A stretch of 38,776 nucleotides of DNA from a virus, in the IMG/VR virus record IMGVR_UViG_3300035183_000869, positions 1 through 38,776 of that record, one strand, 5' to 3'. Below, piece after piece: positions 1 through 36,631 of this stretch (position 1 is the stretch's first letter; each line of letters begins with the position of its first letter). Under the pieces are notes generated by a model. The model was not told the DNA's origin. It made no database searches and saw only the letters and a list, made by a program, of their open reading frames with translations. The translations under genes and the position numbers were made by a program.

Positions 1-1418
1 TCGGGCTCGGCCTGCGGGTCGCTCAGGAACTCGACGTTCGCCCGAACCGTCTCGTCCGAGATGATGCCGGCCCCCCGGAACTGGAGGAGCCGGACGTCGG
101 CGTTCAGCCGGTCCAGGCCGGCACCGACGCCGTAGACGATCTCGATCTCGTGCCGACCGTCGATGTCCTTGGTCGGGCGGTAGGTCGCCTGGTTCCCGAC
201 CGGCCGGTACAGCGGCTTCTCGCGGTCGAGGTACCGCTCGTCCAGCTGGAACCCGACGCGGTGGATCTGCTGGCGGAGGTCGCCGAGGAGCATCTGGATC
301 TGGCGGACGAGCGAGGTCAGCGAGCCCTGCGTCGAGGCGACGAAAGCGGCCGAGGCGATGGATTGGCGGACCTCGCCCTGGCGCGAGGCCGGGTAGGCGA
401 GGCCGCCCCGCTCCTGCGTGTCCAGGAAGCCGATGATGGAGAGCACCTCGGGCGGAACCCCCGGCATCTGCAGGCGCGTGATGCCCGACTCGCTCGTCGG
501 GTCGAGCTGGTAGATGGTCCTCGGCCCCGGCGGGTCCTCGGGGTTGAGCACGTTCTTCATCACGAGCGGTGAGTGGACCAGCTGGTCCATGTAGTCCACG
601 AGCAGCTGCACGATGCGGTTCTTCGCCACGAGCGAACCGCCCACCTGGTCGAGCATCCCGACGATGCGCCCGTCGGGCGAGGGCAGCTGCACCATCGCCG
701 CCGGCGGGACGCCGAGGTCGTGCCGCCAGCGCTTGACGATGCGGACGCCTCCCGGGCCGAGCGGCTTCCCGTTGTTTCCGAGCGCCGCCACCGCCTTGAC
801 GACCTCGTCGTAGCAGTACAGGTCCCAGATCTCCACGGTGTCCGAGCCGCGCTGCGCTCGCCCGAGGTCGAGGTCGGGGAACAGCCGCTCGGCGACGCGG
901 CGCTTCACGCGCTGGACGACGAGGAGCTCCTGCAGCTGGCCGTTGAAGACGTCGGGGTAGCAGAAGCGCGGGTCCACCCGCATGAAGCGCGGATAGGGCG
1001 AGCGGTCCACCCAGGACACGGCGAAGGCCGCGCCGGTGACCGCGAGGTCCATCGCCCACAGCGGGACCATGAGCGGGCCACGGTCGGCCTGCCAGTGCGT
1101 CTCGGCCACCTGGGCGCGGACCAGCGCCTTCTGCGTCTCCCGGTCGGTGTCGTTCTTCGCCGGCGAGCGCGGCGTGGGCGTGACCTCGGCGACGATGCGC
1201 CCGAGGTCGCGCACGAACGTCTCGGCGACGTTCTGCACCAGCGGGAAGTTAACCTCCCTCCTCTCCCCCTGCTTGAGGACCGGCCATTCGCCGCGCAGCA
1301 GCGCGTCCACGTCCTGGACGCGCGCCTTCCAGGTCGCGTAGGTCTCGCCGATCTGCTCGCGGAAGCTGACGAGGTACTCCTCAGACAGCCTGCTTTCGGT
1401 CACCCGCTCGTCGCTCAT
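1..1418 (-). CDS. Portal protein, variant A (partial, C-terminus off window)
   Basis: This is the N-terminal three quarters of a portal protein, the dodecameric ring through which DNA is packaged and leaves the capsid. It is collinear without indels with the complete portal at 36930-38690, starting at the same ATG inside the end of the terminase gene (38-bp overlap, GGAGG three bases upstream). The reading frame stays open to base 1, where roughly the last 113 residues are cut off by the window edge. It differs from the right-hand copy by about 82 bases in 1377, many at third codon positions, so both versions look functional. It is best read as a second strain variant of the same gene captured at the contig end, not as a paralogue. 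Confidence 0.85.
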   Translation of the reverse strand, partial: MSDERVTESRLSEEYLVSFREQIGETYATWKARVQDVDALLRGEWPVLKQGERREVNFPLVQNVAETFVRDLGRIVAEVTPTPRSPAKNDTDRETQKALVRAQVAETHWQADRGPLMVPLWAMDLAVTGAAFAVSWVDRSPYPRFMRVDPRFCYPDVFNGQLQELLVVQRVKRRVAERLFPDLDLGRAQRGSDTVEIWDLYCYDEVVKAVAALGNNGKPLGPGGVRIVKRWRHDLGVPPAAMVQLPSPDGRIVGMLDQVGGSLVAKNRIVQLLVDYMDQLVHSPLVMKNVLNPEDPPGPRTIYQLDPTSESGITRLQMPGVPPEVLSIIGFLDTQERGGLAYPASRQGEVRQSIASAAFVASTQGSLTSLVRQIQMLLGDLRQQIHRVGFQLDERYLDREKPLYRPVGNQATYRPTKDIDGRHEIEIVYGVGAGLDRLNADVRLLQFRGAGIISDETVRANVEFLSDPQAEP

Positions 1419-1504
1419 GGGCCTCCCAGTACGCGCTCCAGCCGCCCGTGAAGCCGGGCGCGAGCCCGCCACGGAACGTCGTAGCCATGCTGATGCCCGG
1501 CACA
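1..1504. repeat. Terminal repeat, left copy (same locus as 37273-38776)
   Basis: Bases 1-1504 match 37273-38776 at a constant offset of 37272 with no gaps. The last mismatch is at 1377 (C) versus 38649 (T). From 1378 to 1504, exactly 127 bases, the copies are identical. 127 is the largest k-mer used by a common de Bruijn assembler, so the contig very probably closes on itself at this 127-mer, with two strain variants entering it. The implied genome length is 37,272 bp. Confidence 0.9.
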
Positions 1505-3147
1505 AGGGCGCGCGCGTTGTACTTGAGGAACCACAGCGCCATCAGCACGTCGTCGGTGTCCCCCTGCGGGTAGACCATCGCCTCGTTGATGAGCAGGTCG
1601 CTCATCCGGCGGGACTCGGCGTCACCGTAGGGGAACCGCACCCGCCCGGCCCGGAAGTCAACGGCGAGCGACTCGATGCCGAAGTGCGCGTCGTTCTTCG
1701 ACTCCCGCGTCGTGGTGTGGGGCCTGACCCGGACCCGCCTCGAGATGGAGCCGAACTCCGGCGTCTGCAGCCAGAAGTGGGCCAGGTTCTTCTCCACGAT
1801 CAGGTACTCCGGGCGGTAGGTCGCGATCATCCGGTCGAGCTGCTCGTTCGCCTCCCGCAGCTGGAGCTTGTCCCGCAGCACCTCGAGCAGCACCGCCTCG
1901 AACTCCCGGGCGCCCGGGGCGAAGGCGACGTCGGCCACCACGATGCCCCAGTACGCCGTCGGGGAGGGGTCCACCGAGATGGCCCTGACCCACGTCCCGC
2001 TGGCCGGCGGCGAGGAGGGCGGCGTGCCCCAGGTGCGGTCCCGGTCGAGGCACCCGGGCGCATCGGCCTCGCCGTGGATCCAGGCCTCCTGGATGAGCCG
2101 GCGGTGCTCGGTGTGCGGGTTCTGCTGGTACAGGCACTCGAAGCCGTCCTGGCCCAGGAGCTCGTACTGCTCCATCAGCTCCTCGAACGGCTTCTCCTCC
2201 GGCCAGAGCACCTTCGGCGGTACTCCCTCGGCGGGGTTCCCCCAGTCGAGCACGGCGGGGTAGCGGATGGTGTGCCAGAGCTTCGGCGCGCCCGCAAGCC
2301 GCGTCATCCGCAGCTTGTCGAGCGTGCCGTAGATGTCCCGCAGGTGGACCCGCTGCCCGATGACCAGCGCCCGCCCGCCCTTCACCAGGCGCGAGAGCAC
2401 CTCGCGCCGGAACCAGCGCTCCTCGCGCTCCCGCTCGGTGTCCGAGCGCGCGATCTTCTCGTCCGTGATGTCGTCGGCGATGATGAGCGTGGCGCGCCGC
2501 CCGAGGATCTGCTGCCCCGAGCCCCGGATCTGGATGGACAGGTCACCCGTCGCGCCCTCGGTCCGCCTGCCGGCGACCATCCCCTCACCCGCCTGCGGCC
2601 GCCAGGGGAACAGCGTGTTGTCCGGCCGGAAGCGCCCGAAGACCTGGAGCAGCTTGGTGTTCGATTCCAGGTGCGTGAACATCTCCTGGGTGACCTTGCG
2701 GACGCCCTCGCCGGTCTTGGAGATGATGATGATCTGCTCGTCCCGGTTCCCGCAGAGCAGGTAGATCGGCAGCCACACCGCCATCACCGTCGTCTTCGCG
2801 TGCCCCGGCGGCACGTTCAGCAGCAGGTAGCGGTGCTCGAAGAAGTCCCGGACCCACTGCTTCGCGTGCGCCGGCAGGTACTCGTAGCCGGAGAACTCGA
2901 CGAAGAACCGCTCGAACCCCTCCGCCGAGGGCGGATGCACCATCGACCGGTAGGGCTCCTCGAGCTGCTCCGGGCGCATCGGCTCCGGGATGACGATGAC
3001 GGAGGCCGCCATCCCCTCCTGCCTGGCGTAGGCGAGGATCTGCCAGATGCGACGCTCCGACAGCCCGAGCTTCTTCGCGATCTGCGTGGCCGAGTAGCCA
3101 CGCTCGCGCAGCGCCACGACCTCCTTCGCCCGAGCGGCCGTGGGCAT
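1381..3147 (-). CDS. terL: Terminase large subunit with N-terminal helix-turn-helix
   Basis: This is the motor ATPase and nuclease that cuts and packages phage DNA. Counting from the ATG at 3147 (588 residues), an HTH segment lies at about residues 17-38 ([19 protein letters not shown]). Walker A PPGHAKTT is at 113-120 and Walker B LIIADD at 221-226. The C-terminal RNase H-like nuclease has an acidic residue in AISVDPSP near 390 and another in DDVLMALW near 533. No separate small-terminase gene is recognisable next to it, so the HTH may supply DNA recognition in cis; this is inference. Longer starts at 3195 (GTG) or 3249 are open but would run towards or into the divergent HNH gene. It overlaps the portal start by 38 bp. 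Confidence 0.92.
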
Positions 3148-3209
3148 ACCGCCGCGCAGCTTCTCGCGGCCACGCTTGGAGTTGGGTGACGCCACGCCGG
3201 CATGGTCTC

Positions 3210-3238
3210 GCCCTCGACAAGGGCAGCACGCTCGGCCC
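3210..3238 (+). promoter_or_regulatory. 15-bp dyad plus -10-like box, HNH gene
   Basis: GCCCTCGACAAGGGC (3210-3224) is a dyad with 5-bp arms GCCCT/AGGGC. CACGCT follows at 3227-3232, and the GTG start comes six bases later, leaving no room for a leader or Shine-Dalgarno. The same arrangement, with one base changed in the dyad, precedes the only other isolated rightward gene (29267). Read leftward it could also act on the divergent terminase. Confidence 0.5.
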
Positions 3239-3595
3239 GTGGCACGCAAGCGCCTGAGGTACCCGAGCGACCCGCACTACTACACCAAGGCCGGCCCGGT
3301 CCGCATCACCCACCCCGACGGCACGGTCTCCGAGGAACCCCCCCTCGACGAGGAGGCCTACGCCAGGCTCATCAAGGAGCGCTGGCCGATCCCGCTCCGC
3401 GTTCGCCGCCAGGTCTTCCGCCGCGACGGGGGCCTCTGCCGCTACTGCGGCGCGCCCGGCGAGGAGATCGACCACATCGTCCCGGTCGCCCTGGGCGGCA
3501 GCAACCGCCTCGACAACCTCGTGCTCTCCTGCCACGACTGCAACAGCCGCAAGGGCGCGCAGGTCTGGAAGCCGCGCAAGCGCGCTTGCCCTTGA
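3239..3595 (+). CDS. HNH endonuclease
   Basis: This is a 118-residue HNH nuclease from a GTG at 3239. The zinc-bracketed catalytic core is complete: C67-x2-C70, D78-H79-I, P82, GG at 86-87, N93, then C98-x2-C101-N102 and K105. The N-terminus is basic (ARKRLR), and a 45-residue linker precedes the core. HNH proteins encoded beside terminase are known in many cos-type phages to be needed with TerL for DNA cleavage or packaging, and here the gene is directly divergent from terL. A free-standing homing-type role is possible but less likely given this position. The GTG start is chosen because upstream in-frame codons overlap terL, and because a -10-like box lies six bases upstream. Confidence 0.85.
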
Positions 3596-3620
3596 TTTTG
3601 GGCCTTGGTTCCCTTACCCT
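3592..3620 (+). promoter_or_regulatory. Possible promoter TTGATT-17-TACCCT
   Basis: TTGATT (3592-3597) and TACCCT (3615-3620) are separated by 17 bases, immediately after the HNH stop. The -10 box overlaps a CCCT-N5-AGGG dyad (3617-3629), weakly like the dyads at 3210 and 29235. No gene follows for about 790 bases, so a transcript from here would be a long leader or a non-coding RNA. Confidence 0.35.
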
Positions 3621-3726
3621 CCGTCAGGGACACTCCACGCCGAAGCTGCACGAGCACCACCCCCGAGCCACCTCACCGGTATCCTTCACCGAGAGCCAGG
3701 AACCGTTCGGGGGTCGCTCGCCGGCC

Positions 3727-3758
3727 CCGTGGCGGAACGGCTCACCCCGCCGCCACGG
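3727..3758. repeat. Inverted repeat, 9-bp arms
   Basis: Arms CCGTGGCGG (3727-3735) and CCGCCACGG (3750-3758) are perfect complements around 14 bases. No T-tract follows on either side, so it is not a typical terminator. Confidence 0.5.
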
Positions 3759-3982
3759 TGGCTGCCCCTGATGTCGCGAGCGACCCCCGAGCACCACCCG
3801 CCGAGCTGCCGAGCACGGCGCGGATCTTCAGAGCCCGCCTACACCGAGCAGAACCGGTCACCAGCGCGCAGATGTGGGCACGTTCAGAGCCATGCACCGG
3901 GCGGAATGCGTGAAACGGGGTGCGTGGGGGAGACTACATCCTTCTCCACGCGCGCGTTTATGGACCCCGGTATCGCCCCCCG

Positions 3983-4000
3983 GTCGAACGCTCGTTCGAC
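3983..4000. promoter_or_regulatory. 18-bp palindrome, operator-like
   Basis: GTCGAACG-CT-CGTTCGAC has two perfect 8-bp arms around a two-base centre. This is the size and symmetry expected for a dimeric repressor site. It is one of two such palindromes within 100 bp; the other is at 4060-4081. Confidence 0.45.
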
Positions 4001-4059
4001 TCCCTGCCCTCTCCCGAGCGCTCCCCCGCCTCGATTGTGGGGTCCCTGACCTGCGGCTT

Positions 4060-4081
4060 CACTCTACCTGTAGGTAGGGTG
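4060..4081. promoter_or_regulatory. 22-bp near-perfect palindrome, operator-like
   Basis: The core is CTACCT-GT-AGGTAG (4064-4077), flanked by CAC on the left and GTG on the right with a single mismatched pair between, so nine of ten arm positions pair. It resembles a dimeric regulator site or a recombinase half-site pair. No cognate protein can be assigned. Confidence 0.45.
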
Positions 4082-4147
4082 AGGGTCGGGCGGGCGGTTG
4101 CGGGCCCTCAGGGGCGCGATCGCGGGCTCCAGCGCTCGAGGACGCAG

Positions 4148-4174
4148 GGCCACGCACCCCCCGAGTGCGTGGCC
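4148..4174. repeat. Hairpin, 10-bp perfect stem
   Basis: GGCCACGCAC and GTGCGTGGCC pair perfectly around a 7-base loop. It is GC-rich with no T-run, so it may be a structured leader element or a protein site rather than an intrinsic terminator. Confidence 0.45.
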
Positions 4175-4306
4175 TCGCGGCCGCTCCGCTCGGCCTCACG
4201 GCTGCCCTATCGGCTGCTCGCCTCCGCCTCACGGTCGCTCGCTCCGATCCGCTCGAGCGCAAGCCCTCGAGCCGGCCGGGACGATCCGTACAACGGCTCG
4301 GCGATC

Positions 4307-4318
4307 GTTTGTACAAAC
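4307..4318. promoter_or_regulatory. 12-bp perfect palindrome GTTTGTACAAAC
   Basis: GTTTGTACAAAC is unusually AT-rich for its surroundings. A second GTACAA lies 24 bases upstream (4288-4293), so two GTAC centres sit roughly two helical turns apart. It lies 23 bases before the TTGACC box at 4342. It could be an operator for the rightward promoter or part of an attachment site for the serine recombinase. Confidence 0.35.
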
Positions 4319-4341
4319 CGATGAAGATGGGCGGAGGGGGA

Positions 4342-4380
4342 TTGACCAGGCTCACCGTGAGGGTGTAGGGTGACGGTGAG
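4342..4380 (+). promoter_or_regulatory. Rightward promoter with operator over the -10
   Basis: TTGACC (4342-4347) and TAGGGT (4366-4371) are 18 bases apart. Perfect 8-bp inverted arms CTCACCGT (4351-4358) and ACGGTGAG (4373-4380) flank the -10 box. Binding to these arms would occlude RNA polymerase, so this looks like a repressible promoter driving the 4414-6647 operon that ends in the recombinase. Confidence 0.5.
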
Positions 4381-4413
4381 GCCCGAGGGGCGGGCCACAG
4401 GGGGTGAGGCAGG

Positions 4414-4692
4414 ATGGCCATCTCGGTGGGCAATCGGATTGGGGGGTGCTCCACGTACGACCTGGAGCGCGACATCGAGGAGTTCATCCGTCGCATCGAG
4501 TCCGACGGCTACGCGGTCGTGCAGGACACGAGCCGGCGGCCCTGGAACCACTACGTCGTCGGCTGCGGTATCGGTCACGACGACGCTCGACTCGCCGAGT
4601 GGGGCGAGTCCTTCGCCGCCTACCTGGAGAACGAGTGTGCCGAGCCGTGGTGGGCGGATCCGACCCATCGCCGCTGGTACGTCGGCGAGTAG
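4414..4692 (+). CDS. Hypothetical protein, 92 aa
   Basis: First gene of the rightward operon; I do not recognise a family. It is small, acidic and aromatic-rich, with a helical stretch (LERDIEEFIRRIESDGYAVV, about residues 17-36) followed by WNHYVVGCG and a Trp-rich C-terminus (AEPWWADPTHRRWYVGE). There are three cysteines but no CxxC pair, and no signal peptide or membrane segment. The ATG at 4414 follows GGTGAGGCAGG, a usable ribosome site. The downstream spacer carries the first copy of a hairpin/ribosome-site cassette. Confidence 0.75.
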   Translation: MAISVGNRIGGCSTYDLERDIEEFIRRIESDGYAVVQDTSRRPWNHYVVGCGIGHDDARLAEWGESFAAYLENECAEPWWADPTHRRWYVGE

Positions 4693-4767
4693 GTCCCACA
4701 GCTGCGTCTCGAGCCCTCGCCCGAGGGCTCGGGGCGGAGCCGGAGGGGCCGGCTCGGGGGAGGTGAG
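4690..4767 (+). repeat. Intergenic hairpin/ribosome-site cassette, copy 1
   Basis: Starting at the stop codon, the unit reads TAGGTCCCAC-A-GCTG, then a hairpin with 9-bp arms (4711-4730, GAGCCCTCG/CGAGGGCTC). Next comes a 31-bp block (4737-4767) identical to 5298-5328. That block contains GAGCCGG-AGGGG-CCGGCTC, a second stem, and ends in GGGGGAGGTGAG, which is the ribosome site of the next gene. The hairpin sequences differ between copies while the pairing is kept. Confidence 0.75.
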
Positions 4768-4772
4768 AGGAG

Positions 4773-5258
4773 ATGGCACGGTGGTACGCGCTAGTGGGTG
4801 ACGAGGGCGCCGAGTCCGACCCGTTCGAGGCCGGATCGGACGAGGAGGCCATCGCGGAGGCTCGGCAGCGCGTCGGCGAGTGGATCGACCCGACCGAGAT
4901 CAGCGACACGGCGTGGGTGGTCGAGCGGCTCGTCGAGGTCGTGGGAGATGAGCGCCGCGAGGTGGGCGAGGTTGCCCGGCGCATCGAGCCGGAGGCGGCC
5001 ACAACCTGCCCGAACGGCGAGGAGCACGAGTGGGTCGACGACGGCACCCTCTACCGGCTCGTCGGCGGCCTGCGCGACAACCCCGGTGTCTGGGGCCACG
5101 GGGGCGGCGTCACGATCACCGAGGTCTGCAGGCGCTGCGGCACCGAGGTCGTGAGGGACACGTGGTGCCAGTGCGGCGACTACCCGTCGCCGGGGGCCGA
5201 GCACGTGCATCGCTACGTGACCGTGGGCAAGTACCGGGAGGAGCTCGAGGAGGTCTAG
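4773..5258 (+). CDS. Zinc-binding hypothetical protein, 161 aa
   Basis: The N-terminal 30 residues are acidic (SDPFEAGSDEEAIAEARQRVGEW) and resemble a small alpha/beta segment. The C-terminal half has CPNGEEHEW, then CRRCG and CQCG, ending with H-x-H-RY, a pattern consistent with one or two structural zinc sites. Proteins with this Trp/Cys C-terminal pattern occur as hypotheticals in phages and bacteria; I cannot name a function. The start is set by GGGGGAGGTGAG in the repeated cassette just upstream. The gene is followed by copy 2 of the cassette. Confidence 0.75.
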   Translation: MARWYALVGDEGAESDPFEAGSDEEAIAEARQRVGEWIDPTEISDTAWVVERLVEVVGDERREVGEVARRIEPEAATTCPNGEEHEWVDDGTLYRLVGGLRDNPGVWGHGGGVTITEVCRRCGTEVVRDTWCQCGDYPSPGAEHVHRYVTVGKYREELEEV

Positions 5259-5328
5259 GTCCCACGGCTGAGGGCCGGGCCCATCGGGCCCGGCCCTGAG
5301 CCGGAGGGGCCGGCTCGGGGGAGGTGAG
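5256..5328 (+). repeat. Intergenic hairpin/ribosome-site cassette, copy 2
   Basis: Same architecture as 4690-4767: TAGGTCCCAC-G-GCTG, then a hairpin with 12-bp perfect arms (5271-5282 with 5286-5297, loop ATC), then the identical 31-bp block at 5298-5328. The core GCCGGAGGGGCCGGC (5300-5314) also occurs at 27637-27651 upstream of the capsid gene. Confidence 0.75.
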
Positions 5329-5332
5329 TCCC

Positions 5333-5470
5333 GTGTGGAAGGCCTTGTTCGCAGACTCCCTGCGGACGCTCGCGCAGGTCGTGGCGGCGGCCCTGGTCGC
5401 TGCCGCCGTGCTCGGAGTGTACGTCGTGCTCGGGATGCTGCACGACGGGTACCTGAGGATCGGGTGGTGA
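5333..5470 (+). CDS. Small single-pass membrane protein, 45 aa
   Basis: A GTG at 5333 follows the ribosome site of cassette copy 2 by four bases. The product is 45 residues with one hydrophobic segment (AQVVAAALVAAAVLGVYVVL, about residues 14-33), preceded by a short basic N-terminus (WKALFADSLRTL) and followed by a short polar tail (HDGYLRIGW). It is likely an inner-membrane peptide. A role in superinfection exclusion would be typical for a gene in a lysogeny-type operon, but that is a guess. The stop is two bases before the next ATG. Confidence 0.7.
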   Translation: MWKALFADSLRTLAQVVAAALVAAAVLGVYVVLGMLHDGYLRIGW

Positions 5471-5472
5471 GG

Positions 5473-5688
5473 ATGGACGGTACGACGATGCGCCGCTTCG
5501 CCGAGCAGGATCACCGGAACGGCGAGCACACCGACCCGCCGAAGAACGCCGACCACTGCTGGTACTGCCGGGACATCCTGAGCGGTGAGTCTGACCGCGT
5601 GCTCGAGCGGGAGAGCGAGCCGGCGACCGAGCCCCGTGCGTGGTCACCGACGGCTCGTGAGGCCGCGTGGATGAGGAAGGGCGCGTGA
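5473..5688 (+). CDS. Hypothetical protein with CxxC, 71 aa
   Basis: The ATG at 5473 is two bases after the upstream stop and is preceded by GGTGGTGAGG. The 71-residue product is hydrophilic with a single HCWYC motif near residue 27. That could be half of a zinc site or a reactive Cys pair. The rest is charged and probably flexible (DRVLERESEPATEPRAW). No family is recognised. It overlaps the next gene by 4 bp if that gene uses its GTG. Confidence 0.65.
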   Translation: MDGTTMRRFAEQDHRNGEHTDPPKNADHCWYCRDILSGESDRVLERESEPATEPRAWSPTAREAAWMRKGA

Positions 5689-5891
5689 GAGCGATGAACG
5701 GTCGCTGCGACTGGTGCGGGGACGAGCTCGACCGCGAGCCGGACGAGCAGATCCCCGACGAGACTCTGCTCGGCGTGCGTACGGGAGCACATCCCGACTG
5801 CCCGAGAGCGTTGAACCGCGAGCCGGGGGGCGCGCGGCTCGCAGGCCACGAGCGCGGCCCGTCCCCCAGTCTCGCCGGAGCGTGGAGGTGA
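5685..5891 (+). CDS. Small zinc-finger-like protein, 68 aa
   Basis: The GTG at 5685 overlaps the upstream stop (GTGA) and follows AGGAAGGG; an ATG three codons later (5694) is an alternative. A C-D-W-C pair near the N-terminus and H-x2-C (HPDC) about 30 residues on form a plausible CCHC zinc site. The C-terminus is Gly/Arg-rich and likely disordered. Function is unknown; with its neighbours it forms a set of small Cys-pair proteins just before the recombinase. Confidence 0.6.
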   Translation: MRAMNGRCDWCGDELDREPDEQIPDETLLGVRTGAHPDCPRALNREPGGARLAGHERGPSPSLAGAWR

Positions 5892-5897
5892 GCCTAG

Positions 5898-6647
5898 ATG
5901 AACCGTCCGAGTGCGTTTACGGGCGCAAGCCCTGACCGTGGGCCTGGGCGCAAGCCGCCCCGAGCCCTCCCCTACCTTCGCGTGAGCACGACCGAGCAGG
6001 CCACCGACGGGCTCGGGCTCGATGTACAGCTCCAGGCCTGCCGAGCGTGGGCGCAGCGGAACGGGTACGTGCTCGTCCCGGGGGAGCGGGATGAGGGGAT
6101 CTCCGGCACCGCCCCGCTCGATGAGCGTCCCGGGCTTGCACGTGCGCTCGCCCGGCTCGAGGACGGGGCGGCGGAGGCCCTAGTCGTTTACCGCCTCGAC
6201 CGCCTGGCGCGCGACATCATCGTGCAGGAGACCGTCGTTCGCCGGCTCGAGGCGAGGGGCAAGCAGGTCATCTCGGCCACGGAGCCGGACATCTCGAGCT
6301 CGGACGAGGACCCGACCCGGGCGCTCGTCCGAGGCCTGCTCGGGCTCATCGCCGCCTACGAGCGTGCGGTCATCAAGGGCAGGCTCGCCTCGGCTCGCCG
6401 GCTCAAGGCCGAGCGCGGGGAGTACGCGGGCGGGAGGCCGCCGTTCGGGTACGCCGCCGCCTCCGGGACGCTGATCCCGGTGCCCGAGGAGCAGCGCGTG
6501 CTGCGGCGCATCGCCGAGCTGCGGCGCGAGGGCTACTCGCTCGAGCGCATCTGCGAGCGGCTGGCCGAGGAAGGTCTCAAGCCCCGCTATGCGGAGCGCT
6601 GGCATCCGTGGCAGGTCTCGAAGCTGCTCCGTCGGGTCTCAGCCTGA
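5898..6647 (+). CDS. Serine recombinase, probable integrase
   Basis: This is a 249-residue site-specific recombinase of the resolvase/invertase superfamily. The catalytic serine is S30 in YLRVSTTEQ. Other conserved elements are EGISG (about 66-70), YRLDRLARD (98-106) and the long helix through AAYERAVIKGRLASARRLKAERG. After GGRPPFGY comes a short DNA-binding region (EQRVLRRIAELRREGYSLERICERL) resembling the start of the large-recombinase domain. The zinc ribbon and coiled coil of full serine integrases (usually more than 450 residues) are absent, so this is an intermediate-size form. It is the only recombinase seen and the last gene of the rightward operon. The start follows GGAGGTGA by six bases. 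Its 3' end overlaps the convergent gene by 71 bp. Confidence 0.9.
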   Translation: MNRPSAFTGASPDRGPGRKPPRALPYLRVSTTEQATDGLGLDVQLQACRAWAQRNGYVLVPGERDEGISGTAPLDERPGLARALARLEDGAAEALVVYRLDRLARDIIVQETVVRRLEARGKQVISATEPDISSSDEDPTRALVRGLLGLIAAYERAVIKGRLASARRLKAERGEYAGGRPPFGYAAASGTLIPVPEEQRVLRRIAELRREGYSLERICERLAEEGLKPRYAERWHPWQVSKLLRRVSA

Positions 6648-6822
6648 CGAGCGGGAGCCGTCCGAGGAGCTGCGGGACGTACAGCTCCCAGGTGCCGGGC
6701 TCGTACGTGCGCGCCTCGCCGCCCGGCAGCCGCACCTCCAGGCTGCCATCCTCGTGCTCCTGGTAGGAGAGCACGGGCTCGCCGCCCCACTCCTCGTCGG
6801 AGGAGAAGACGACGCGCGGCAT
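6577..6822 (-). CDS. Hypothetical protein, 81 aa
   Basis: Last gene of the long early leftward operon. The ATG at 6822 shares a base with the upstream stop (TGATG). The body is acidic and beta-rich (EWGGEPVLSYQEHEDGSLEVRLPGG), and the tail (RPATDASAPHSGA) looks disordered. That tail is encoded on the strand opposite the recombinase C-terminus, so the two operons collide inside coding sequence. No family is recognised. Confidence 0.65.
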   Translation of the reverse strand: MPRVVFSSDEEWGGEPVLSYQEHEDGSLEVRLPGGEARTYEPGTWELYVPQLLGRLPLVRLRPDGAASRPATDASAPHSGA

Positions 6823-7055
6823 CAGTCGCCACCTCCGATCCCGAGCCGGTGGCAGAGGCCCGCCCAGACGAAGGCATCCGCGACGCTCACGGCCCACAGC
6901 CCATACCTCGGCACCGTCAGGTAAACCCACTCGCCCGCCACCGTCGCTCCGCTCTTCTCGTAGAGCCGGAGGAACTCTTCGGACGACAACCCGTAGCGCT
7001 GCTCGAAGCGGAGCAGCCGCTCGTGCAGGTCTTGCTCGCTGTAGAACGGCTTCAT
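6822..7055 (-). CDS. Hypothetical protein, 77 aa
   Basis: The ATG at 7055 overlaps the upstream stop by 4 bp. The N-terminal half is a charged helical segment (EQDLHERLLRFEQRYGLSSEEFLRLYE) and the C-terminal half is aromatic and hydrophobic. The helix pattern resembles small toxin/antitoxin partner proteins but is not diagnostic. The gene sits tightly between two other small genes of the same operon, so co-expression is certain if the operon is transcribed. Confidence 0.7.
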   Translation of the reverse strand: MKPFYSEQDLHERLLRFEQRYGLSSEEFLRLYEKSGATVAGEWVYLTVPRYGLWAVSVADAFVWAGLCHRLGIGGGD

Positions 7056-7309
7056 CGGTCGAGCTCCGCCTCGAGCACCGTGATCTCGTACACGAGCACG
7101 GTGCCGTCGCCCCGCTCCCGATGCCGCCGACCGGTGATGTGGCCCTTGAACCTGCCGGTCACGTACTCGTGGAAGGCGAACCCGCCCCGGTCGGTCGGTA
7201 GGTCGCGGGTGCCGAGGAGCGTGAAGCGCACGCCCTCGGGCTTCGGCCATCCCTCGCCCTCGAAGGCGAGCTGGCTCGGCTCCTGCGACGGCATCGGCAT
7301 GACGGTCAT
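7052..7309 (-). CDS. Hypothetical protein, 85 aa
   Basis: The ATG at 7309 is preceded by GGAGGTGG and overlaps the WhiB stop by 4 bp (ATGA). The predicted fold is beta-rich (VRFTLLGTRDLPTDRGGFAFHEYVTGRFKGHITGRR, then VLVYEITVLEAEL). Together with the 77-residue protein downstream it forms a coupled pair, which could be a two-component unit such as toxin and antitoxin. That idea rests on organisation only. Confidence 0.65.
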   Translation of the reverse strand: MTVMPMPSQEPSQLAFEGEGWPKPEGVRFTLLGTRDLPTDRGGFAFHEYVTGRFKGHITGRRHRERGDGTVLVYEITVLEAELDR

Positions 7310-7791
7310 GCGACCACCTCCTGTCCCATGAGGCCCCACATCGAGGCCTGCTCGTCCATCGACCTCAGCAGGATGTCCACCTGCTCATCCACGGGCCGGC
7401 AGGCACGGTGGTCCCGGGGCCGCGCTCTCGTGCCCGGCTCGCAGTCGTCCCGGTGCGCGGCGTCCTTGCGTTCCGAGGGTAGGGTGCCGCCCCAGATGCC
7501 CCAGGGGTCGCACGTCTCCAGCGCCTCCCGCAGGCACGCCTCCCGGACCGGGCAGACGACACAGATCGCCTTGGCTCGCCGCTCGGCCAACGTCAACCCC
7601 TTCGTCGCGCGGTCCTCGGAGCTCCGCTCGGGGTACCACCAGTCGGGGTCGACGTGCGGCAGCTGGCCGCACAGGCCACGGTCGATCCAGCGCCGGCGAC
7701 GACGGGACGCGAGCAGGGAGTAGCCGACCCAGGCGCGGGGAACGCTCGTGCCCCAGGGGAGCTTGCCCGCCACCTTCGTCACGCTGTCCAT
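7306..7791 (-). CDS. WhiB-family iron-sulfur transcription regulator
   Basis: This 161-residue protein has the four iron-sulfur ligands of the Wbl family: C41, then C77-x2-C80-x5-C86. The signature turn GIWGG is at 98-102. HVDPDWWYPE after C41 is also typical. Wbl proteins bind a [4Fe-4S] cluster and usually act on the host sigma factor; they are found in Actinomycetota and their phages, which supports the host call. Phage copies are known to alter host septation or block superinfection. The C-terminus beyond GIWGG is longer than in many family members and lacks an obvious basic DNA-contact patch. The start carries a 23-bp repeat shared with the upstream gene region at 8178-8200. Confidence 0.92.
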   Translation of the reverse strand: MDSVTKVAGKLPWGTSVPRAWVGYSLLASRRRRRWIDRGLCGQLPHVDPDWWYPERSSEDRATKGLTLAERRAKAICVVCPVREACLREALETCDPWGIWGGTLPSERKDAAHRDDCEPGTRARPRDHRACRPVDEQVDILLRSMDEQASMWGLMGQEVVA

Positions 7792-7803
7792 CTCGCCTCC
7801 TCC
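7781..7803 (-). repeat. Start-associated 23-bp repeat, copy 1 (whiB start)
   Basis: These 23 bases cover the ribosome site (GGAGGAGGCGAG) and the first four codons (M-D-S-V) of the WhiB gene. They are identical to 8178-8200. Two neighbouring genes thus share a duplicated translation-initiation region. Confidence 0.8.
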
Positions 7804-7825
7804 GATCCCGCCTCGGGCTCCGCCG

Positions 7826-8122
7826 CTACTCCTCGTAGACGCGCTCGTAGGTCGCCTCGAAGATGTCAGGCTTGACCGGGTAGAACTCTCCCTGCACGCC
7901 GCGCACGATGTAGTCGCCGGGCGAGGCCTCGAGCATGCCCTCCAACGTCTTGACCTGTAGCTTCAGGTCTGGCGCAGGGACCCGCCCATCCTTGCTCAGC
8001 AGGCTTCCAGCCGCCGGGCAGAATCGGAGCATCGCAGCGATGCTCTCCTTCGTCGAGGGGTCCCACTGCAACGCCTCGATCTCCACGGGGCGCTTGCGAT
8101 ACCGCCTCGGCTCCAGATCCAT
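7826..8122 (-). CDS. Phage protein with PGDYI...GEFYPVKPDIF motif, 98 aa
   Basis: This is a widespread small phage protein of unknown role, recognisable from YRKRPVEIEALQW near the start and PGDYIVRGVQGEFYPVKPD with IFEATYERVYEE at the end. The central region runs FCPAAGSLLSKDG. The ATG at 8122 follows AAGGAGGAG, the strongest ribosome site in the area, and gives the length usual for the family. An upstream in-frame ATG at 8188, inside the 23-bp repeat, would add 22 residues without similarity to the family. Both starts could be used. Confidence 0.75.
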   Translation of the reverse strand: MDLEPRRYRKRPVEIEALQWDPSTKESIAAMLRFCPAAGSLLSKDGRVPAPDLKLQVKTLEGMLEASPGDYIVRGVQGEFYPVKPDIFEATYERVYEE

Positions 8123-9957: not shown

Positions 9958-10715
9958 CGGCTCCCCCTCGCCTCGAGCCGGCGCTCGACCTCGGCCGCCA
10001 CCTCGTCGAACTCGCTCCGCCGAGCCACGAGGCCGCGAGCAGCGGCGCGGAGCCTCGGTAGGTGCTTGGCCACCGCGTGCGCCGTGCAGGTCGCGTCGCC
10101 CATCACGCGCGGCCAGGCGGCGATGGCCGCGCGGAGCTCGTCCCGGCTGATTCCGGTGGCCCGGATCTCGGCCGCTGCGGCGTTGAGAGCGTCGGCGGCC
10201 TTCCTCGTCAGCCGAGAGCGGGCCTCCGCCGAGTAGGCCTCGCCCGTCTCGAGGGCGAACAGCGTCTCGTAGATCGGGTCGTTCCTCGGCGAGCCGTTGC
10301 GGGCGCGACGTCGCTTCGCGCCAGAGAGAGAGATAACGCTAGTTATCTCTCTCTCTGGTAGTTCTATATGGCTCTCGTTCTCTGCCGCACCGGTGCGGCT
10401 ACCCCCCGCCGCAGCCGTGCGGCTACCTGGCCGCAGGATGTAGTCGTTCGTCGTCAGCTCCTTCGACCCCTCGGCGGCGGGCCGGTGGCGCACCTCGAGG
10501 ATCCCGACCTGGCAGAGCTCGGCCAGGGCCCGGTCCACCGAGTCCAGCGAGCAGCCCAGCCTCTCGGCCAGCGTTCGCCGGCTCGGATGGGCGTGCCCCT
10601 GCTTGCCGGCGTACCGGGCGAGGATGCCGTACAGCCTCACCGCCCGGTCGCTGACCGGCGCGTCGAGGAGCCACTCGGGGATCTGGGCGAACGGTAGGGT
10701 GTTGATGACGCTCAT
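9954..10715 (-). CDS. Replication initiator-like winged-helix protein
   Basis: This 253-residue protein has an N-terminal winged helix (SDRAVRLYGILARYAG then HPSRRTLAERLGCSLDSVDRALAEL, about residues 22-68), as in phage replication initiators and replisome organisers. A linker follows with a repeated GSRTAAAG/GSRTGAAE, and then a C-terminal helical domain. The linker DNA contains two 11-bp direct repeats (10393-10403 and 10417-10427) and a 38-bp perfect inverted repeat (10321-10358). This is the classic place for an origin inside the initiator gene, as in lambda O. The ATG overlaps the upstream stop by 4 bp. Confidence 0.7.
   Translation of the reverse strand: MSVINTLPFAQIPEWLLDAPVSDRAVRLYGILARYAGKQGHAHPSRRTLAERLGCSLDSVDRALAELCQVGILEVRHRPAAEGSKELTTNDYILRPGSRTAAAGGSRTGAAENESHIELPEREITSVISLSGAKRRRARNGSPRNDPIYETLFALETGEAYSAEARSRLTRKAADALNAAAAEIRATGISRDELRAAIAAWPRVMGDATCTAHAVAKHLPRLRAAARGLVARRSEFDEVAAEVERRLEARGSR
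10321..10358. repeat. 38-bp perfect inverted repeat, candidate replication origin
   Basis: The 17-bp arms CCAGAGAGAGAGATAAC (10321-10337) and GTTATCTCTCTCTCTGG (10342-10358) are perfect complements around GCTA. It is much more AT-rich than the surrounding gene and lies in the linker coding region of the initiator. About 35-70 bases away are two 11-bp direct repeats GTGCGGCTACC with 24-base spacing. Confidence 0.7.
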
Positions 10716-14015: not shown

Positions 14016-14284
14016 CGCCCCTCCCCGTGCACGACCCGCAGACCGTGCAGGCGCGGGAACAGGAGACCGAGGTTCTCGAGGACGCCGGCGAGCCACGTGC
14101 GGATGTACTCGTACGCCTCGTCCGCGCTGCACGCTTCACACCGGTGGACAGCGGTGAGGCACTGCGTCTCGCTCAGGGTGAGGACGCGCGTGTCCCAGCC
14201 GGCTTCCCTGAGCTCCCCATCGAGCCAGGTGCCGAGCGCCTTCGGCAGCTCGAACTCAAGCTCAACGCGGTAGAGGGCCTTCAC
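14012..14284 (-). CDS. Hypothetical protein, 90 aa, paralogue of next gene downstream
   Basis: Second member of the tandem pair (see 13737-14015). It has YRVELEFELP at the start, LREAGWDTRV in the middle, then AYEYIRTWLAGVLENLGLLFPRL. It has two Cys (CEAC) that the other copy lacks, which may be a partial metal site. Starts at ATG 14284, overlapping the HTH gene by 4 bp. Second gene of the early operon, so it is among the first proteins made. Confidence 0.7.
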   Translation of the reverse strand: MKALYRVELEFELPKALGTWLDGELREAGWDTRVLTLSETQCLTAVHRCEACSADEAYEYIRTWLAGVLENLGLLFPRLHGLRVVHGEGR

Positions 14285-14451
14285 GACTCCTCCTCTCGCC
14301 TGAGCCGCCGGATGTGCTGGTAGACGCGGGCTCGGGTGAGCCCGAGGATCGCGGCGATGTCAGCAGGGCGCTTCCCCTCGGCGAGAAGGCTCCGCACGAG
14401 CTCGCGGGTCGGTCGCCTCGGGTCCGACTTCTCACGCATCGGCGCTGCCAT
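14281..14451 (-). CDS. Small HTH regulator, first gene of the early operon
   Basis: 56 residues from ATG 14451. The C-terminal two thirds is a helix-turn-helix of the sigma-region-4/Trp-repressor style: PTRELVRSLLAEGKRPADIA followed by AILGLTRARVYQHIRRL. The N-terminus is basic. The promoter -10 box ends seven bases before the ATG, so the transcript is probably leaderless. A dyad (ACCCC/GGGGT) in the promoter spacer is a good candidate binding site for this protein, making autoregulation plausible. No larger CI-type repressor is evident in the window. Confidence 0.75.
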   Translation of the reverse strand: MAAPMREKSDPRRPTRELVRSLLAEGKRPADIAAILGLTRARVYQHIRRLRREEES

Positions 14452-26097: not shown

Positions 26098-26559
26098 CTA
26101 GATGTCGTACTCGGCCACATAGAGGACCGGAGCACTCCAGTTGTCGCCGGCTTGGAGGTTTGTGGTGGTGCTGAGGAGCCGGTAGCCCGGTGGGAGCAGG
26201 ATGTCGGGCAGCGGAGCGAACCGAGAGGCGGAGTCCGAACCCGTCCACCCGCTCCCGACGCCGCTGAACCATTCGTACCGATTGAGGAGGGACGCGGTCT
26301 GTAGCCCGGAGGAAGGAATGACGGCGAACCTGTTTGCGGTGTTACCGTCGTCGATCTGGAGTCGCGGAGCCCTGTTGGCTACCGTCGCGTCGGTCAGCAA
26401 CTCGACGAGGACTGCCAGCACTCTCCACACCTTGCCGTTCGGCACGGTCACCAACCACTCCTGCCCGGCGGCGGGGTCGGTGCCGGTGACGACCTTGAGC
26501 CGGGCGGCCTCCAGCCGGACGAGACTGCCGCCCACCAGGATGAGTTCCGTGTCCATCAT
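26098..26559 (-). CDS. Structural protein, 153 aa
   Basis: ATG 26559 (GAGAGGAGCACG upstream); a second ATG follows directly. Beta-rich jelly-roll-like segments: TELILVGGSLVRLEAARLKV, QEWLVTVPNGKVWRVLAVLV, then RYEWFSGVGSGWTGSDSASR and LPPGYRLLSTTTNLQAGDNW, ending VLYVAEYDI. This resembles small phage head-decoration or tail proteins. Its start overlaps the upstream stop. Confidence 0.6.
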   Translation of the reverse strand: MMDTELILVGGSLVRLEAARLKVVTGTDPAAGQEWLVTVPNGKVWRVLAVLVELLTDATVANRAPRLQIDDGNTANRFAVIPSSGLQTASLLNRYEWFSGVGSGWTGSDSASRFAPLPDILLPPGYRLLSTTTNLQAGDNWSAPVLYVAEYDI

Positions 26560-27029
26560 CGTGCTCCTCTCGTACCATGCCCCGCCACGGTGAAGCGCAC
26601 GTCCCTGCCGGAGCCCCGCTGCACGGCGTCGAGGTACATCCCGGCGACGCGCCGCAGGGTCTCGACGTCCACAGGCTCGCCCTCGCGCCAGAACTCCGCA
26701 CCGAACGCGCGGTACTCCTCGTCGCTGAGATCCGCGGGTGTGACCGGCCGCCCGAGCTGACGAGCCCGGGCCTCCAGGTGCGCGACGAAGTGCAGCGCCA
26801 GCTGCTCGGCACGCTCGCGCGGCGTCCGCTTCGCGATGGGGACGAGTCGGGCCCGGCCCTTGCCGGTCGGGGCGGCCACGGTGACCGAGCGGTTCCACGG
26901 CTCGACGCGGGCACCGTCCGCATCGGCGGCGGTGATGGCCCCCCGGAAGACGCGGGAGCCGGCCTGCGGCCGCAGGATGATGCGCAGCGCCCTCAGGGCC
27001 TCGTCCCGGACCTCATCCGATGCTGACAC
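26556..27029 (-). CDS. Head-tail region protein, 157 aa
   Basis: The first 60 residues (SDEVRDEALRALRIILRPQA, VFRGAITAADADGARVEPW) and a helical second half (RERAEQLALHFVAHLEARAR, SDEEYRAFGAEFWREGEPV, VETLRRVAGMYLDAVQRGSG) suggest a mixed structural or assembly protein. ATG 27029 overlaps the upstream gene by 17 bp. No family is recognised with confidence. Confidence 0.55.
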   Translation of the reverse strand: MSASDEVRDEALRALRIILRPQAGSRVFRGAITAADADGARVEPWNRSVTVAAPTGKGRARLVPIAKRTPRERAEQLALHFVAHLEARARQLGRPVTPADLSDEEYRAFGAEFWREGEPVDVETLRRVAGMYLDAVQRGSGRDVRFTVAGHGTRGAR

Positions 27030-27609
27030 GCCGCAGCTGCTCCTGGCGGATGCGATCGTTGAAGACCTCGACCGCCTCCGCCCCCATGGAGTGGATGACG
27101 ATCTTGGCCTCGGTCTCGTTGCAGTAGCTCCCGAAGGCCGTTCGCACCCTCGGGTTCGGCTCGTAGCAGCCGGGGAACTCGCACATCGGCGCGATGCCGA
27201 GCTCCTGCGGCCACCGGAAGCCCTGCGCGAGCGCGCGCTCGACGGCCCTGCCGGAGTCCGTGCCCTCGTCCACCCGGATCGGTCGCACGTTCGCGACCAT
27301 CTCGTACTGGACGGTCTCCTCCACGCCGTCCTGCTTGAACGTGCTCTGCCCGCAGTGGAGCGCCTGGCCCTCGACGCGCTCGTCGCACACCGAGCAGCGC
27401 AGCACCACGGTCGTGAGCGTGCGCGGGGACTTGCTGAAGTAGGGGTTGTGCTGGCAGCGCTCCCACCAGCGGGGACGCCGCTTCGACTGGCACTCCTCGC
27501 AGACGGGCGCCACCATCTTCACCTCGCGGACCCGGATCCCACGGTACTGCTTCTGCGATGCCGCGACGGGCAGCGCGACCAGGTCTGCGGCCTTCGGCTT
27601 GTCAGCCAT
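27013..27609 (-). CDS. Cys-rich protein next to capsid, 198 aa
   Basis: It begins ADKPKAADLVALPVAASQKQ and has CEECQSKRRPRWWERC, then CSVCDERVEGQALHCG, and later CEFPGCYEP and FGSYCNETEA. At least two zinc sites are likely. ATG 27609 follows GTAGGGAGGGAGC. It is translated directly after the capsid gene. Zinc-ribbon proteins in that slot are found in some phages as capsid-associated or assembly proteins; the function is not known to me. Confidence 0.6.
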   Translation of the reverse strand: MADKPKAADLVALPVAASQKQYRGIRVREVKMVAPVCEECQSKRRPRWWERCQHNPYFSKSPRTLTTVVLRCSVCDERVEGQALHCGQSTFKQDGVEETVQYEMVANVRPIRVDEGTDSGRAVERALAQGFRWPQELGIAPMCEFPGCYEPNPRVRTAFGSYCNETEAKIVIHSMGAEAVEVFNDRIRQEQLRRVSIG

Positions 27610-27629
27610 GCTCCCTCCCTACGGGTGAG

Positions 27630-27658
27630 GTGGGGGGCCGGAGGGGCCGGCCCCCCAC
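27630..27658 (-). repeat. Hairpin after the capsid gene, 12-bp stem
   Basis: Arms 27630-27641 and 27647-27658 pair perfectly around AGGGG. It contains GCCGGAGGGGCCGGC (27637-27651), the same core as the two cassettes at 4739 and 5300. There is no T-tract leftward, so it may act as an RNA 3' stabiliser or processing signal for the abundant capsid mRNA. Confidence 0.6.
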
Positions 27659-27668
27659 GCACCGGCTA

Positions 27669-28547
27669 CTAGGCGGTCGCCTTCGTGATGACGGCCTGGC
27701 CCCGGGGGTCATCCGCCCGGGCGACACCCAGGTTGTAGCTGGCGACGATCTCGGTCGCACGCAGCGAGGCGTCCCGCTGGAGCTCGACCCGGAAGTCGCG
27801 CAGCTGGTGCCAGACGATGGCGTCCTTCGAGGCCACCACGCCGGCCCGGTCCGCGCCGGCGTTCGCCGTCACGACCGAGCTGGTCTGCCAGATGTCCACG
27901 CCCATGAGCGAGCCGGCGTACGCGTCCCGCTGGACCGAGTCCATGATGGACTGCTTCAGCTGGGGGTTCGCCAGGAAGTTGCTGTTGTTCGGCCCCGACA
28001 GCATGCCGCCGGTCGCCGTCTGGAGGTGGAACACCTGGACGGGGTGCAGGATGGCCGTGTACGGGCCGGGCACGTCGCGCTGGGCGAGCGCGCTCACGGC
28101 CGTGATGAACTGCGTCAGCGTGAGCGCCGACCCGGAGGTGCCCGTGACGTTCGAGAAGCCGCCGAACAGACCGCAGAACTGGTCGTTCAGCCGCTCCGCG
28201 AGCGAGCGGACCAGGACCTCCCGGACCCACTCGTAGGCGTCGAACTCGCTCGCCTCGGACAGCACGTCGGTCGGGGTCGCCATGATGGCCTGCTCCGAGG
28301 CCGTCACGGTCACGTTGCCCGTGCTGATGGCCGTGTTGGTCCCGTCGGTCGCCTCGGCGATGCCGGCGGCCGCGCCGGGGTCGGTGATCTTCGGAATCTG
28401 GACCGTGCGGCCGGCACCGAACGGGTCGGCCTGCATGAACAGGGTCTTGAAGGGCAGGACCAGCGGCCGCAGCTCCTCCATCAGCGCCCGGTGCAGGGCG
28501 GTGATGACCGTGTCGTCCGCGGTCGTGGTCGTGGTCTCGTTCGCCAT
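27669..28547 (-). CDS. Major capsid protein
   Basis: 292 residues. Capsid features: N-arm (TVITALHRALMEELRPLVLP), KTLFMQADPFGAGRTVQIPK, then GTNTAISTGNVTVTASEQAI, a long spine helix (YEWVREVLVRSLAERLNDQF), and the late P-domain segment SLMGVDIWQTSSVVTANAGA. The end, ATEIVASYNLGVARADDPRG, is typical of HK97-fold capsids. It follows the scaffold gene. It lies in the part of the operon with the hairpin at 27630, suggesting mRNA-level control. Confidence 0.85.
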   Translation of the reverse strand: MANETTTTTADDTVITALHRALMEELRPLVLPFKTLFMQADPFGAGRTVQIPKITDPGAAAGIAEATDGTNTAISTGNVTVTASEQAIMATPTDVLSEASEFDAYEWVREVLVRSLAERLNDQFCGLFGGFSNVTGTSGSALTLTQFITAVSALAQRDVPGPYTAILHPVQVFHLQTATGGMLSGPNNSNFLANPQLKQSIMDSVQRDAYAGSLMGVDIWQTSSVVTANAGADRAGVVASKDAIVWHQLRDFRVELQRDASLRATEIVASYNLGVARADDPRGQAVITKATA

Positions 28548-28568
28548 GTTGCCTCAACTCCTCAGGGA

Positions 28569-29087
28569 TCAGCTGGAGAGGACTCCGACCTCTCCGACGT
28601 CGGCGATCCCTCGCTGCTGCGCCTCGCGGACCGCACGGCCCGGGTCCTGGCGGTGGAGCTCGGCGAACTCCTTCCAGGTGATCGGACCCTGCGTCGAGGC
28701 AGCCGCAGCGGCAGGCTGCGTCGGCACGAACGCCGGCTCGCTCGCCGGCTGCTCGGCCGTCTCCCGTTCCGGCTCGGGGACGGCGAGCCCGTACTCCTGC
28801 GCCCAGGTCCGCACGCTCTCGGGCGTGGGCTCCGCGCCATCCTGGGCCTTCAGGTACAGCTCGGCCCACTTCGGGTTGAGGCCCACCTGCTCGAAGATGG
28901 TCCGGGCCGAAGCCACGGTCCTCTCGCGCTCGGCCTGCTCGCGGTAGGCGCGCAGCTCCTCCAGCTCCTTGCGGGCCGCCTTCAGCTCCTTCTCGAGCTT
29001 GCGGGCGTGCTCGCGGATCTGGCGGATGGTGGAGTTCTCCACCTCGGGCTCTTCGTCCTCCTGGTCGAACAGGGCGTCGTCGTCCAT
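28569..29087 (-). CDS. Capsid scaffolding protein
   Basis: 172 residues from ATG 29087 (GGGAGGAAGTG upstream). Acidic start (MDDDALFDQEDEEPEVENS) followed by a long coiled coil (EHARKLEKELKAARKELEEL, about 30-65), then a Pro/Ala-rich linker (EQPASEPAFVPTQPAAAAAS) and a short C-terminal helix (TWKEFAELHRQDPGRAVREA). This composition and its place right before the capsid gene are classic for scaffolding proteins, which leave or are cleaved during maturation. Confidence 0.8.
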   Translation of the reverse strand: MDDDALFDQEDEEPEVENSTIRQIREHARKLEKELKAARKELEELRAYREQAERERTVASARTIFEQVGLNPKWAELYLKAQDGAEPTPESVRTWAQEYGLAVPEPERETAEQPASEPAFVPTQPAAAAASTQGPITWKEFAELHRQDPGRAVREAQQRGIADVGEVGVLSS

Positions 29088-29230
29088 CACTTCCTCCCGT
29101 GGTGACGGTGCGGGGCACACCGGAAGAGGGGTTACACCGCTAGAAGGCCAGCGGTCGGCCGCCGGGCCGCGCAGGCGCGCGGACTCTTGCCGTGACGGCG
29201 GGGGCCGGCAGGTCCCGCCCGCGCACAGGC

Positions 29231-29260
29231 TTGCGCCCTCGTCAAGGGCGGGCGTACGCT
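29231..29260 (+). promoter_or_regulatory. Leaderless-type promoter with GCCCTCGTCAAGGGC dyad
   Basis: TTGCGC (29231-29236) and TACGCT (29255-29260) are 18 bases apart, and the ATG comes six bases later. The dyad 29235-29249 matches the one at 3210-3224 at 14 of 15 positions, including its arms. This is the only rightward promoter seen in the structural half. Confidence 0.6.
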
Positions 29261-29266
29261 TGCGCC

Positions 29267-29473
29267 ATGAGGTGGCTGCTCGAGAAGCTGGCGATCCTCG
29301 TGGCCTACGTCATCGCGGCCTACATCGCCGTCGTCATCGCGTGGTTCTTCTCGCTCATGATGGGCGAGCCGCCGGAGGAGCCCATCCGTCCTGCGGACGT
29401 CGCCGGCATGAGCGGACCCACCGCGCCGGTCGGCGCGACCGGGGCGTACGACTACGGCGACCCGTACCCGTAG
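29267..29473 (+). CDS. Orphan rightward membrane protein, 68 aa
   Basis: A single gene on the opposite strand to the whole structural operon. Residues 4-31 form a hydrophobic segment (LLEKLAILVAYVIAAYIAVV then WFFSLMMG), followed by a Pro/Gly/acidic tail (EPPEEPIRPADVAGM and GAYDYGDPYP). It is likely a single- or double-pass membrane protein with a cytosolic tail. Its own promoter and lone position fit a moron gene expressed from a prophage, for example in superinfection exclusion. That role is inferred. Confidence 0.7.
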   Translation: MRWLLEKLAILVAYVIAAYIAVVIAWFFSLMMGEPPEEPIRPADVAGMSGPTAPVGATGAYDYGDPYP

Positions 29474-29474
29474 C

Positions 29475-30452
29475 TCACTCGGACCGCTGGGTCGGAGGCT
29501 TGCCCCCGACCAGGACCGCGCCGGTGGCGGTGGGCACGAGCTGCTGTTCGGCGCGGTCGGTCTGCTCGAAGGCCTGGATGTTGCGCATCAGCTGTCCCAG
29601 GACCTCGCGCGCCCGGGCGGCGTTCTTCCCGCCGACCACAGCGGTGACGAGCTGCCGCTTGTTCAGGCCGACGCCCCGGATCTGGCTCTCCGGCAGGACC
29701 GAGAGGAACAGGTCGGCCAGCTGCTCGAAGCTCTTCTGCAGGTCGGCGTCGGACAGGCCGGCTGCGGCGACCCGCTTGACCAGGCCCCGGCCGATGCTCG
29801 TCTGGGTGGCCGCCTCGCCCTTGTCCCGCACGTTCAGGCCGGCCATCGTCGCCGCCGTGCGGGCCTGCGCCTCGCGCCAGATGCGGTACCACTCGGGGTC
29901 GGCCCGGCCAGCCACGAAGTCGAGCAGGTCCTTCTCCCGCACGTCGCGCTTGATGCCCATCGCCTCGAGCGTCTGCTTGAACTGCTGGAAGGCGACGCGG
30001 TTGTCCCGCATCGTGGCGACGGCCTGGGCCCGGGTGCGGAACGCGCTCACGCTCACGTCGTTGCGGAACAGGTGCGCGATCTGCGCGTCGGTCAGCCGGA
30101 TGCCGACCGAGGCGGCGATGTCCTCGTAGGCGTTCCGGGTGGCGATGTACTGGGCCTCGGTCATCCGCAGCGTGCCGTCGGGGTTGAAGATGCCGGGGAA
30201 GGCCTCGCGGTAGAAGCGGGTCTGCCGGAGGTGGTAGAGCGCCTCGGCCTGGCCCCAGCGGTTGCTGGCCGCTTGCTGCGCCCAGGCGCGAGCCTCGGCG
30301 GTGAGCGGGATGTAGAGGGACTGAAGCAGGGCGAGGTACGGCTCGACCGGCGAGGTAGGCGGAGCCGAGGAGCCGCCGGAGGAGCCCGAGCCCCCGTTCC
30401 CCGTGTTCTGGGGCGGCGGCGTCCCGAGGAACTGGTTCTCGTCCTTCGCCAT
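29475..30452 (-). CDS. Internal virion-type protein, 325 aa
   Basis: Glycine/Pro-rich start (MAKDENQFLGTPPPQ, SGSSGGSSAPPTSP), then a fully helical body (LTAEARAWAQQAASNRWGQA, AQYIATRNAYEDIAASVGIR, QFKQTLEAMGIKRDVREKDL, DLQKSFEQLADLFLSVLPES). Directly after the giant protein and likely co-assembled with it as a second ejection protein. No enzymatic motif is seen. ATG 30452. Confidence 0.6.
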   Translation of the reverse strand: MAKDENQFLGTPPPQNTGNGGSGSSGGSSAPPTSPVEPYLALLQSLYIPLTAEARAWAQQAASNRWGQAEALYHLRQTRFYREAFPGIFNPDGTLRMTEAQYIATRNAYEDIAASVGIRLTDAQIAHLFRNDVSVSAFRTRAQAVATMRDNRVAFQQFKQTLEAMGIKRDVREKDLLDFVAGRADPEWYRIWREAQARTAATMAGLNVRDKGEAATQTSIGRGLVKRVAAAGLSDADLQKSFEQLADLFLSVLPESQIRGVGLNKRQLVTAVVGGKNAARAREVLGQLMRNIQAFEQTDRAEQQLVPTATGAVLVGGKPPTQRSE

Positions 30453-30453
30453 C

Positions 30454-36237: not shown

Positions 36238-36240
36238 GGC

Positions 36241-36630: not shown

Positions 36631-36631
36631 G

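Follow-up and report, generated by a model that had tools for sequence, protein, structure and literature searches.

Cluster A mycobacteriophages carry as many as 30 stoperators per genome, mostly in one orientation (PMC6550527), and in M. tuberculosis both the TANNNT -10 box and leaderless starts are frequent (PMC3898074). The accessory ('moron') genes of prophages are often highly expressed in the lysogen (PMC7067206). Here we describe a short element at two promoters of a complete IMG/VR record of 38,776 bases and 70% GC, the whole of which was analysed and is referred to as the window.

Genome setting of the two sites

Most genes of the window are leftward, those for terminase, portal, a 1,927-aa protein, scaffold and capsid among them. 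Rightward are the HNH gene at 3239, a group at 4414-6647 ending in a serine recombinase, and, at 29267, the gene for a 68-aa membrane protein, which lies antisense among leftward morphogenesis genes (Table 1). Two isolated rightward genes had been described earlier, but the HNH gene heads a rightward segment (3239-6647) and is not fully isolated. Searches of Pfam and PHROGs gave no match for the 68-aa protein. The capsid has 30-33% identity to capsids of Pelagibacter phages and of phage DSL-LC06, and the terminase and portal share ~22-29% identity with their counterparts in various phages, some of them Streptomyces phages. The presence of a WhiB gene (7306-7791) suggests that the host is actinobacterial, and this unclassified phage is probably an actinobacterial one. 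The record ends overlap, with 1-1504 matching 37273-38776 at 94.5% identity in the portal gene; the map is probably circular, at ~37.3 kb, and assembled from two strains or across a strain difference, or else the overlap is a true duplication of the portal segment.

Table 1. Coordinates of the genes, promoter-like sites and dyads discussed in the text
Feature	Position	Strand	Evidence or remark
Large terminase (TerL), N-terminal HTH, divergent from HNH gene	1381..3195	-	Pfam HTH_23; tblastn to phage terminases
Dyad copy 1, GCCCTCGACAAGGGC, imperfect, 15 bp	3210..3224	+	centre 3217
-10-like box CACGCT	3227..3232	+	six bases before HNH start, without convincing -35
HNH endonuclease, 118 aa, GTG start	3239..3595	+	Pfam HNH E=2.8e-13; PHROGs HNH families
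Promoter-like TTGATT-17-TACCCT	3592..3620	+	transcription start expected near 3627
Weaker dyad, CCCTCCGTCAGGG	3617..3629	+	overlaps -10 box and start region of the 3592 promoter
56-aa HTH protein, candidate regulator	14281..14451	-	PHROG 686 E=7e-9
Promoter-like TTGCGC-18-TACGCT	29231..29260	+	dyad occupies most of spacer
Dyad copy 2, GCCCTCGTCAAGGGC, imperfect, 15 bp	29235..29249	+	
68-aa protein, ATG start, one predicted membrane span, ~residues 8-32	29267..29473	+	hydropathy up to 2.62

Several other elements were seen in the window. The ~0.8 kb at 3596-4413 has no convincing gene; it has promoter-like sites at 3592 and 4342, contains dyads at 4059-4082, at 4148-4174 and, as TTTGTACAAA, near 4310, and may be a region for attachment, packaging or control. 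Inside this gap, GTCGAACGCTCGTTCGAC (3983-4000) contains an exact match to CGAAC-RNNY-GTTCG, a form of the LexA (SOS) box of Gram-positive bacteria; as the record holds 1 match within one mismatch against 0.44 expected, chance could account for it. On the plus strand a repeated intergenic module occupies 4690-4767 and 5256-5328, starting each time at the TAG stop of the preceding gene and consisting of TAGGTCCCAC(A/G)GCTG, a long hairpin and then GAGCCGGAGGGGCCGGCTCGGGGGAGGTGAG before the next start. The hairpin stems differ in sequence with pairing kept (fold z-scores -2.6 and -6.0), and GG(A/G)GGTGAG likewise stands upstream of the genes at 4414 and 5898; the modules recall the ESAS/SAS elements of Cluster K mycobacteriophages (PMC3203893). 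At 10320-10359, within a leftward HTH_36 gene, lies a long inverted repeat, GCCAGAGAGAGAGATAACGCTAGTTATCTCTCTCTCTGGT, whose T-rich tail is weak, and searches of the window for Rfam families and tRNAs found none.

Two rightward promoters share a 15-mer

The sequence GCCCTCG(A/T)CAAGGGC has two exact copies in the 38,776-base record, at 3210-3224 and 29235-29249 and both on the plus strand, precisely where the preliminary description had placed them; a third exact copy is absent from the record, and other matches with up to three mismatches appear to lie within genes. Its description as a 15-bp dyad holds in that palindrome-like pairing is present, but the symmetry is imperfect, with pairing at 6 of the 7 positions and an identical mispair in both copies. 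The centre of copy 1 is the midpoint of the 43-nt gap (3196-3238) between the divergent starts of TerL (GTG 3195) and HNH. The start codons lie 14 and 17 bases past the dyad ends, on the same strand, and the -10 boxes 2 and 5 nt past them, a difference of 3 bp between the sites. Comparison of the two upstream regions for more extended homology gave nothing convincing, and none of the papers searched contains the 13-bp core of the dyad.

Both dyads are accompanied by a -10-like box with a start codon six bases on, CACGCT (3227-3232) before GTG 3239 and TACGCT (29255-29260) before ATG 29267. This arrangement had been reported for both sites, and indeed YACGCT-N6-RTG has just these 2 matches in the record (0.85 expected). 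The promoter pattern TTGNNN-N15-19-TANNNT has just 7 matches at 70% GC, four of them intergenic: 3592-3620, 4342-4371 and 29231-29260 on the plus strand, and 14487-14459 on the minus strand. Copy 2 lies inside TTGCGC-18-TACGCT, a good, real-looking promoter whose TACGCT-N6-ATG has the leaderless layout (TANNNT ~6 nt before the start and no Shine-Dalgarno); from this layout its transcript is predicted to begin at the ATG. Copy 1 lies upstream of CACGCT, whose first -10 position is C rather than T, so that this box is not TANNNT. At both genes the dyad overlaps the -35/-10 region, with the 3239 promoter itself weak. The HNH mRNA is likewise predicted to be leaderless, starting at GTG 3239.

The weaker CCCT-N5-AGGG dyad noted earlier at 3617-3629 is present, and it overlaps the -10 box of the good promoter TTGATT-17-TACCCT. 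It shares with the 15-mer the outer CCCT/AGGG alone, and it sits elsewhere within its promoter. This core occurs 4 times in the record (0.94 expected), at 3211, 3617, 29236 and 30563; the first three lie at rightward promoters, and that at 30563 is inside the gene for the 1,927-aa protein. The record's best promoter-like match, TTGACA-17-TATCGT (14487-14459, minus strand), is also of the leaderless type, lies seven bases before the ATG of the 56-aa HTH gene, and has a spacer dyad, ACCCCGAGGGGT, that differs in sequence from the 15-mer dyad.

IMG/VR queries with the major capsid protein (MCP), TerL, the 68-aa protein and the portal found no close relatives, and no relative keeping the HNH or 68-aa gene was found in the IMG/VR, GTDB contigs or phage records searched. 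Loci in the alignment of distant MCPs reach at most 38% identity, and all of those fetched lack the 68-aa gene as well as the portal and every other structural gene tested; among GTDB contigs there were two distant matches. Phage records held no near DNA match to 26500-38776, and for 1-8000 the matches listed were distant, at 1-2% query coverage; the collections searched may lack records very close to the window. The bare 15-mer was found in 118 IMG/VR stretches, nearly all apparently coding when judged by eye from their flanks, mostly for the string A-L-(D/V)-K-G (ALDKG/ALVKG). Searches for the composite motif returned one match, inside a gene, and 12 relaxed matches without the arrangement; among the collections searched there is no genuine second occurrence of the composite pattern.

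A candidate operator and its alternatives

We give about an even chance to the reading that the 15-mer is a core-promoter operator at which one repressing protein controls leaderless rightward genes, with the 3617 site perhaps under joint control. One DNA-binding protein would dock at the 15-mer, in competition with RNA polymerase, the operator centre lying ~22-25 bp upstream of the expected transcription start and inside the core promoter. Two autonomous rightward genes would be controlled, those for the HNH endonuclease and the 68-aa single-span membrane protein, and since their transcripts would start at the start codon, binding would directly shut off each gene; the weaker 3617-3629 site, which overlaps the -10 box of another rightward promoter, the third, may be subject to the same control. 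Protein binding, repression and a single regulator for all sites are what we infer from these sequence features. A repressor, which can cope with the 3-bp difference between the two spacings, seems more likely than an activator, which usually cannot.

The operator reading is supported by the coincidence of both YACGCT-N6-RTG matches, and of three of the four CCCT-N5-AGGG cores, with these promoters, by the rarity of the shared dyad in chance trials (10 and 0 in 100,000, below), by the place of the 29231 and 3592 promoters among the four intergenic matches of a rare pattern, and by the commonness of the leaderless TANNNT layout in an actinobacterium (PMC3898074), the kind of host suggested by the WhiB gene. 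Counting against it are the lack of any relative found to keep the genes, the poor -35 at 3239, the 3-bp spacing difference, the departure of the 3617 site in both sequence and placement, and the lack of a candidate regulator linked to the site; the dyad is moreover imperfect, with an identical mispair in both copies that binding by a symmetric dimer would not call for. The preliminary description had proposed a regulon, and what stands of this is the same site at two promoters with a weaker, partial fit at a third, but no regulator is linked to the site; the operator reading describes a plausible, unproven small regulon. If it is true, the 68-aa membrane protein and the terminase-side HNH nuclease would be co-regulated, in a lineage for which no close relative was found, and the roles of both genes (e.g., phage exclusion or packaging) would be testable through one switch.

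Coincidence, with a GC-rich 15-mer present by chance in both of two ordinary promoters of very GC-rich DNA, is unlikely but far from negligible. The window has 1,086 pairs of 15-mers with at most one mismatch, so the sharing of a 15-mer alone means little; both members are dyads in 2 of these pairs, and the second, 1852/37056, is likewise palindromic. A shared 15-mer turned up in 11 of 4,000 random pairs of real stretches of matching sizes and in 11 of 3,000 dinucleotide shuffles, and Markov models of the two gaps gave a shared 15-mer in 727 of 100,000 trials, a shared dyad in 10, and a shared dyad on the same strand with its distance to the start within 5 nt in 0. These figures are optimistic, because the pattern was already seen when its significance was calculated; with this post hoc choice allowed for, a chance origin of the shared dyad is unlikely. 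Coincidence must also accommodate a common strand, near-equal distances to the start, and the same -10-like box at a spacing unique to the two sites.

An activator could also bind the site; MerR-type proteins, for instance, bind dyads between -35 and -10 and activate the promoter by twisting it. This reading is improbable: the dyad is in or beside the spacer, and the 3239 promoter, with no good -35, might need help, but the 29231 spacer is 18 rather than 19-20, the 3-bp difference puts the sites on different helix faces relative to the -10 box, and the window proteins scanned against Pfam (part of the ORFs) include no MerR-type match. The shared mispair and orientation are compatible with an asymmetric site bound by a monomer, and thus with a stoperator-like roadblock that halts leftward late transcription, besides or instead of rightward control. 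Both copies stand in front of leftward genes (TerL at one, scaffold and capsid at the other), but this reading is very improbable, as two sites compare with as many as 30 in Cluster A genomes (PMC6550527), no repressor of the stoperator kind was recognised and both sites coincide with rightward promoters. More doubtful still is a combined role, in which the asymmetric site would be a rightward operator and, in the same bound state, a leftward roadblock ahead of the terminase and capsid genes, and one repressor would govern accessory genes on one strand and late genes on the other. We rejected an RNA hairpin, acting as terminator or leader in leftward transcripts, as barely credible: the mispair does become a U-G wobble in leftward RNA, completing the stem, but folding is no better than that of shuffled sequence (z 0.03 and -0.33) and no T run follows on the leftward strand.

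Comparison with known systems

Cluster A stoperators are similarly short repeated sites in one orientation, but they recur in many copies across the genome, whereas the window has two exact copies, which lie within promoters of opposite-strand genes and have no matching repressor recognised (PMC6550527). The likeness to the leaderless TANNNT promoters of M. tuberculosis lies in a -10 box ~6 nt before the start, with no leader and no Shine-Dalgarno; those promoters are mapped and ours predicted, and the 3239 promoter has CACGCT instead of TANNNT (PMC3898074). The 68-aa gene is comparable to prophage 'moron' genes (PMC7067206) in that it is small, lies on the opposite strand among late genes and has a promoter of its own, but its expression in a lysogen is assumed here and no terminator is established. 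Set beside core-promoter operators of phages and plasmids, at which repressors bind between the -35 and -10 boxes or over them, the window has two strong copies alone, each an imperfect dyad with a common mispair; like those operators, it has a short dyad in the core promoter and genes that could be controlled singly, and control of this kind is familiar.
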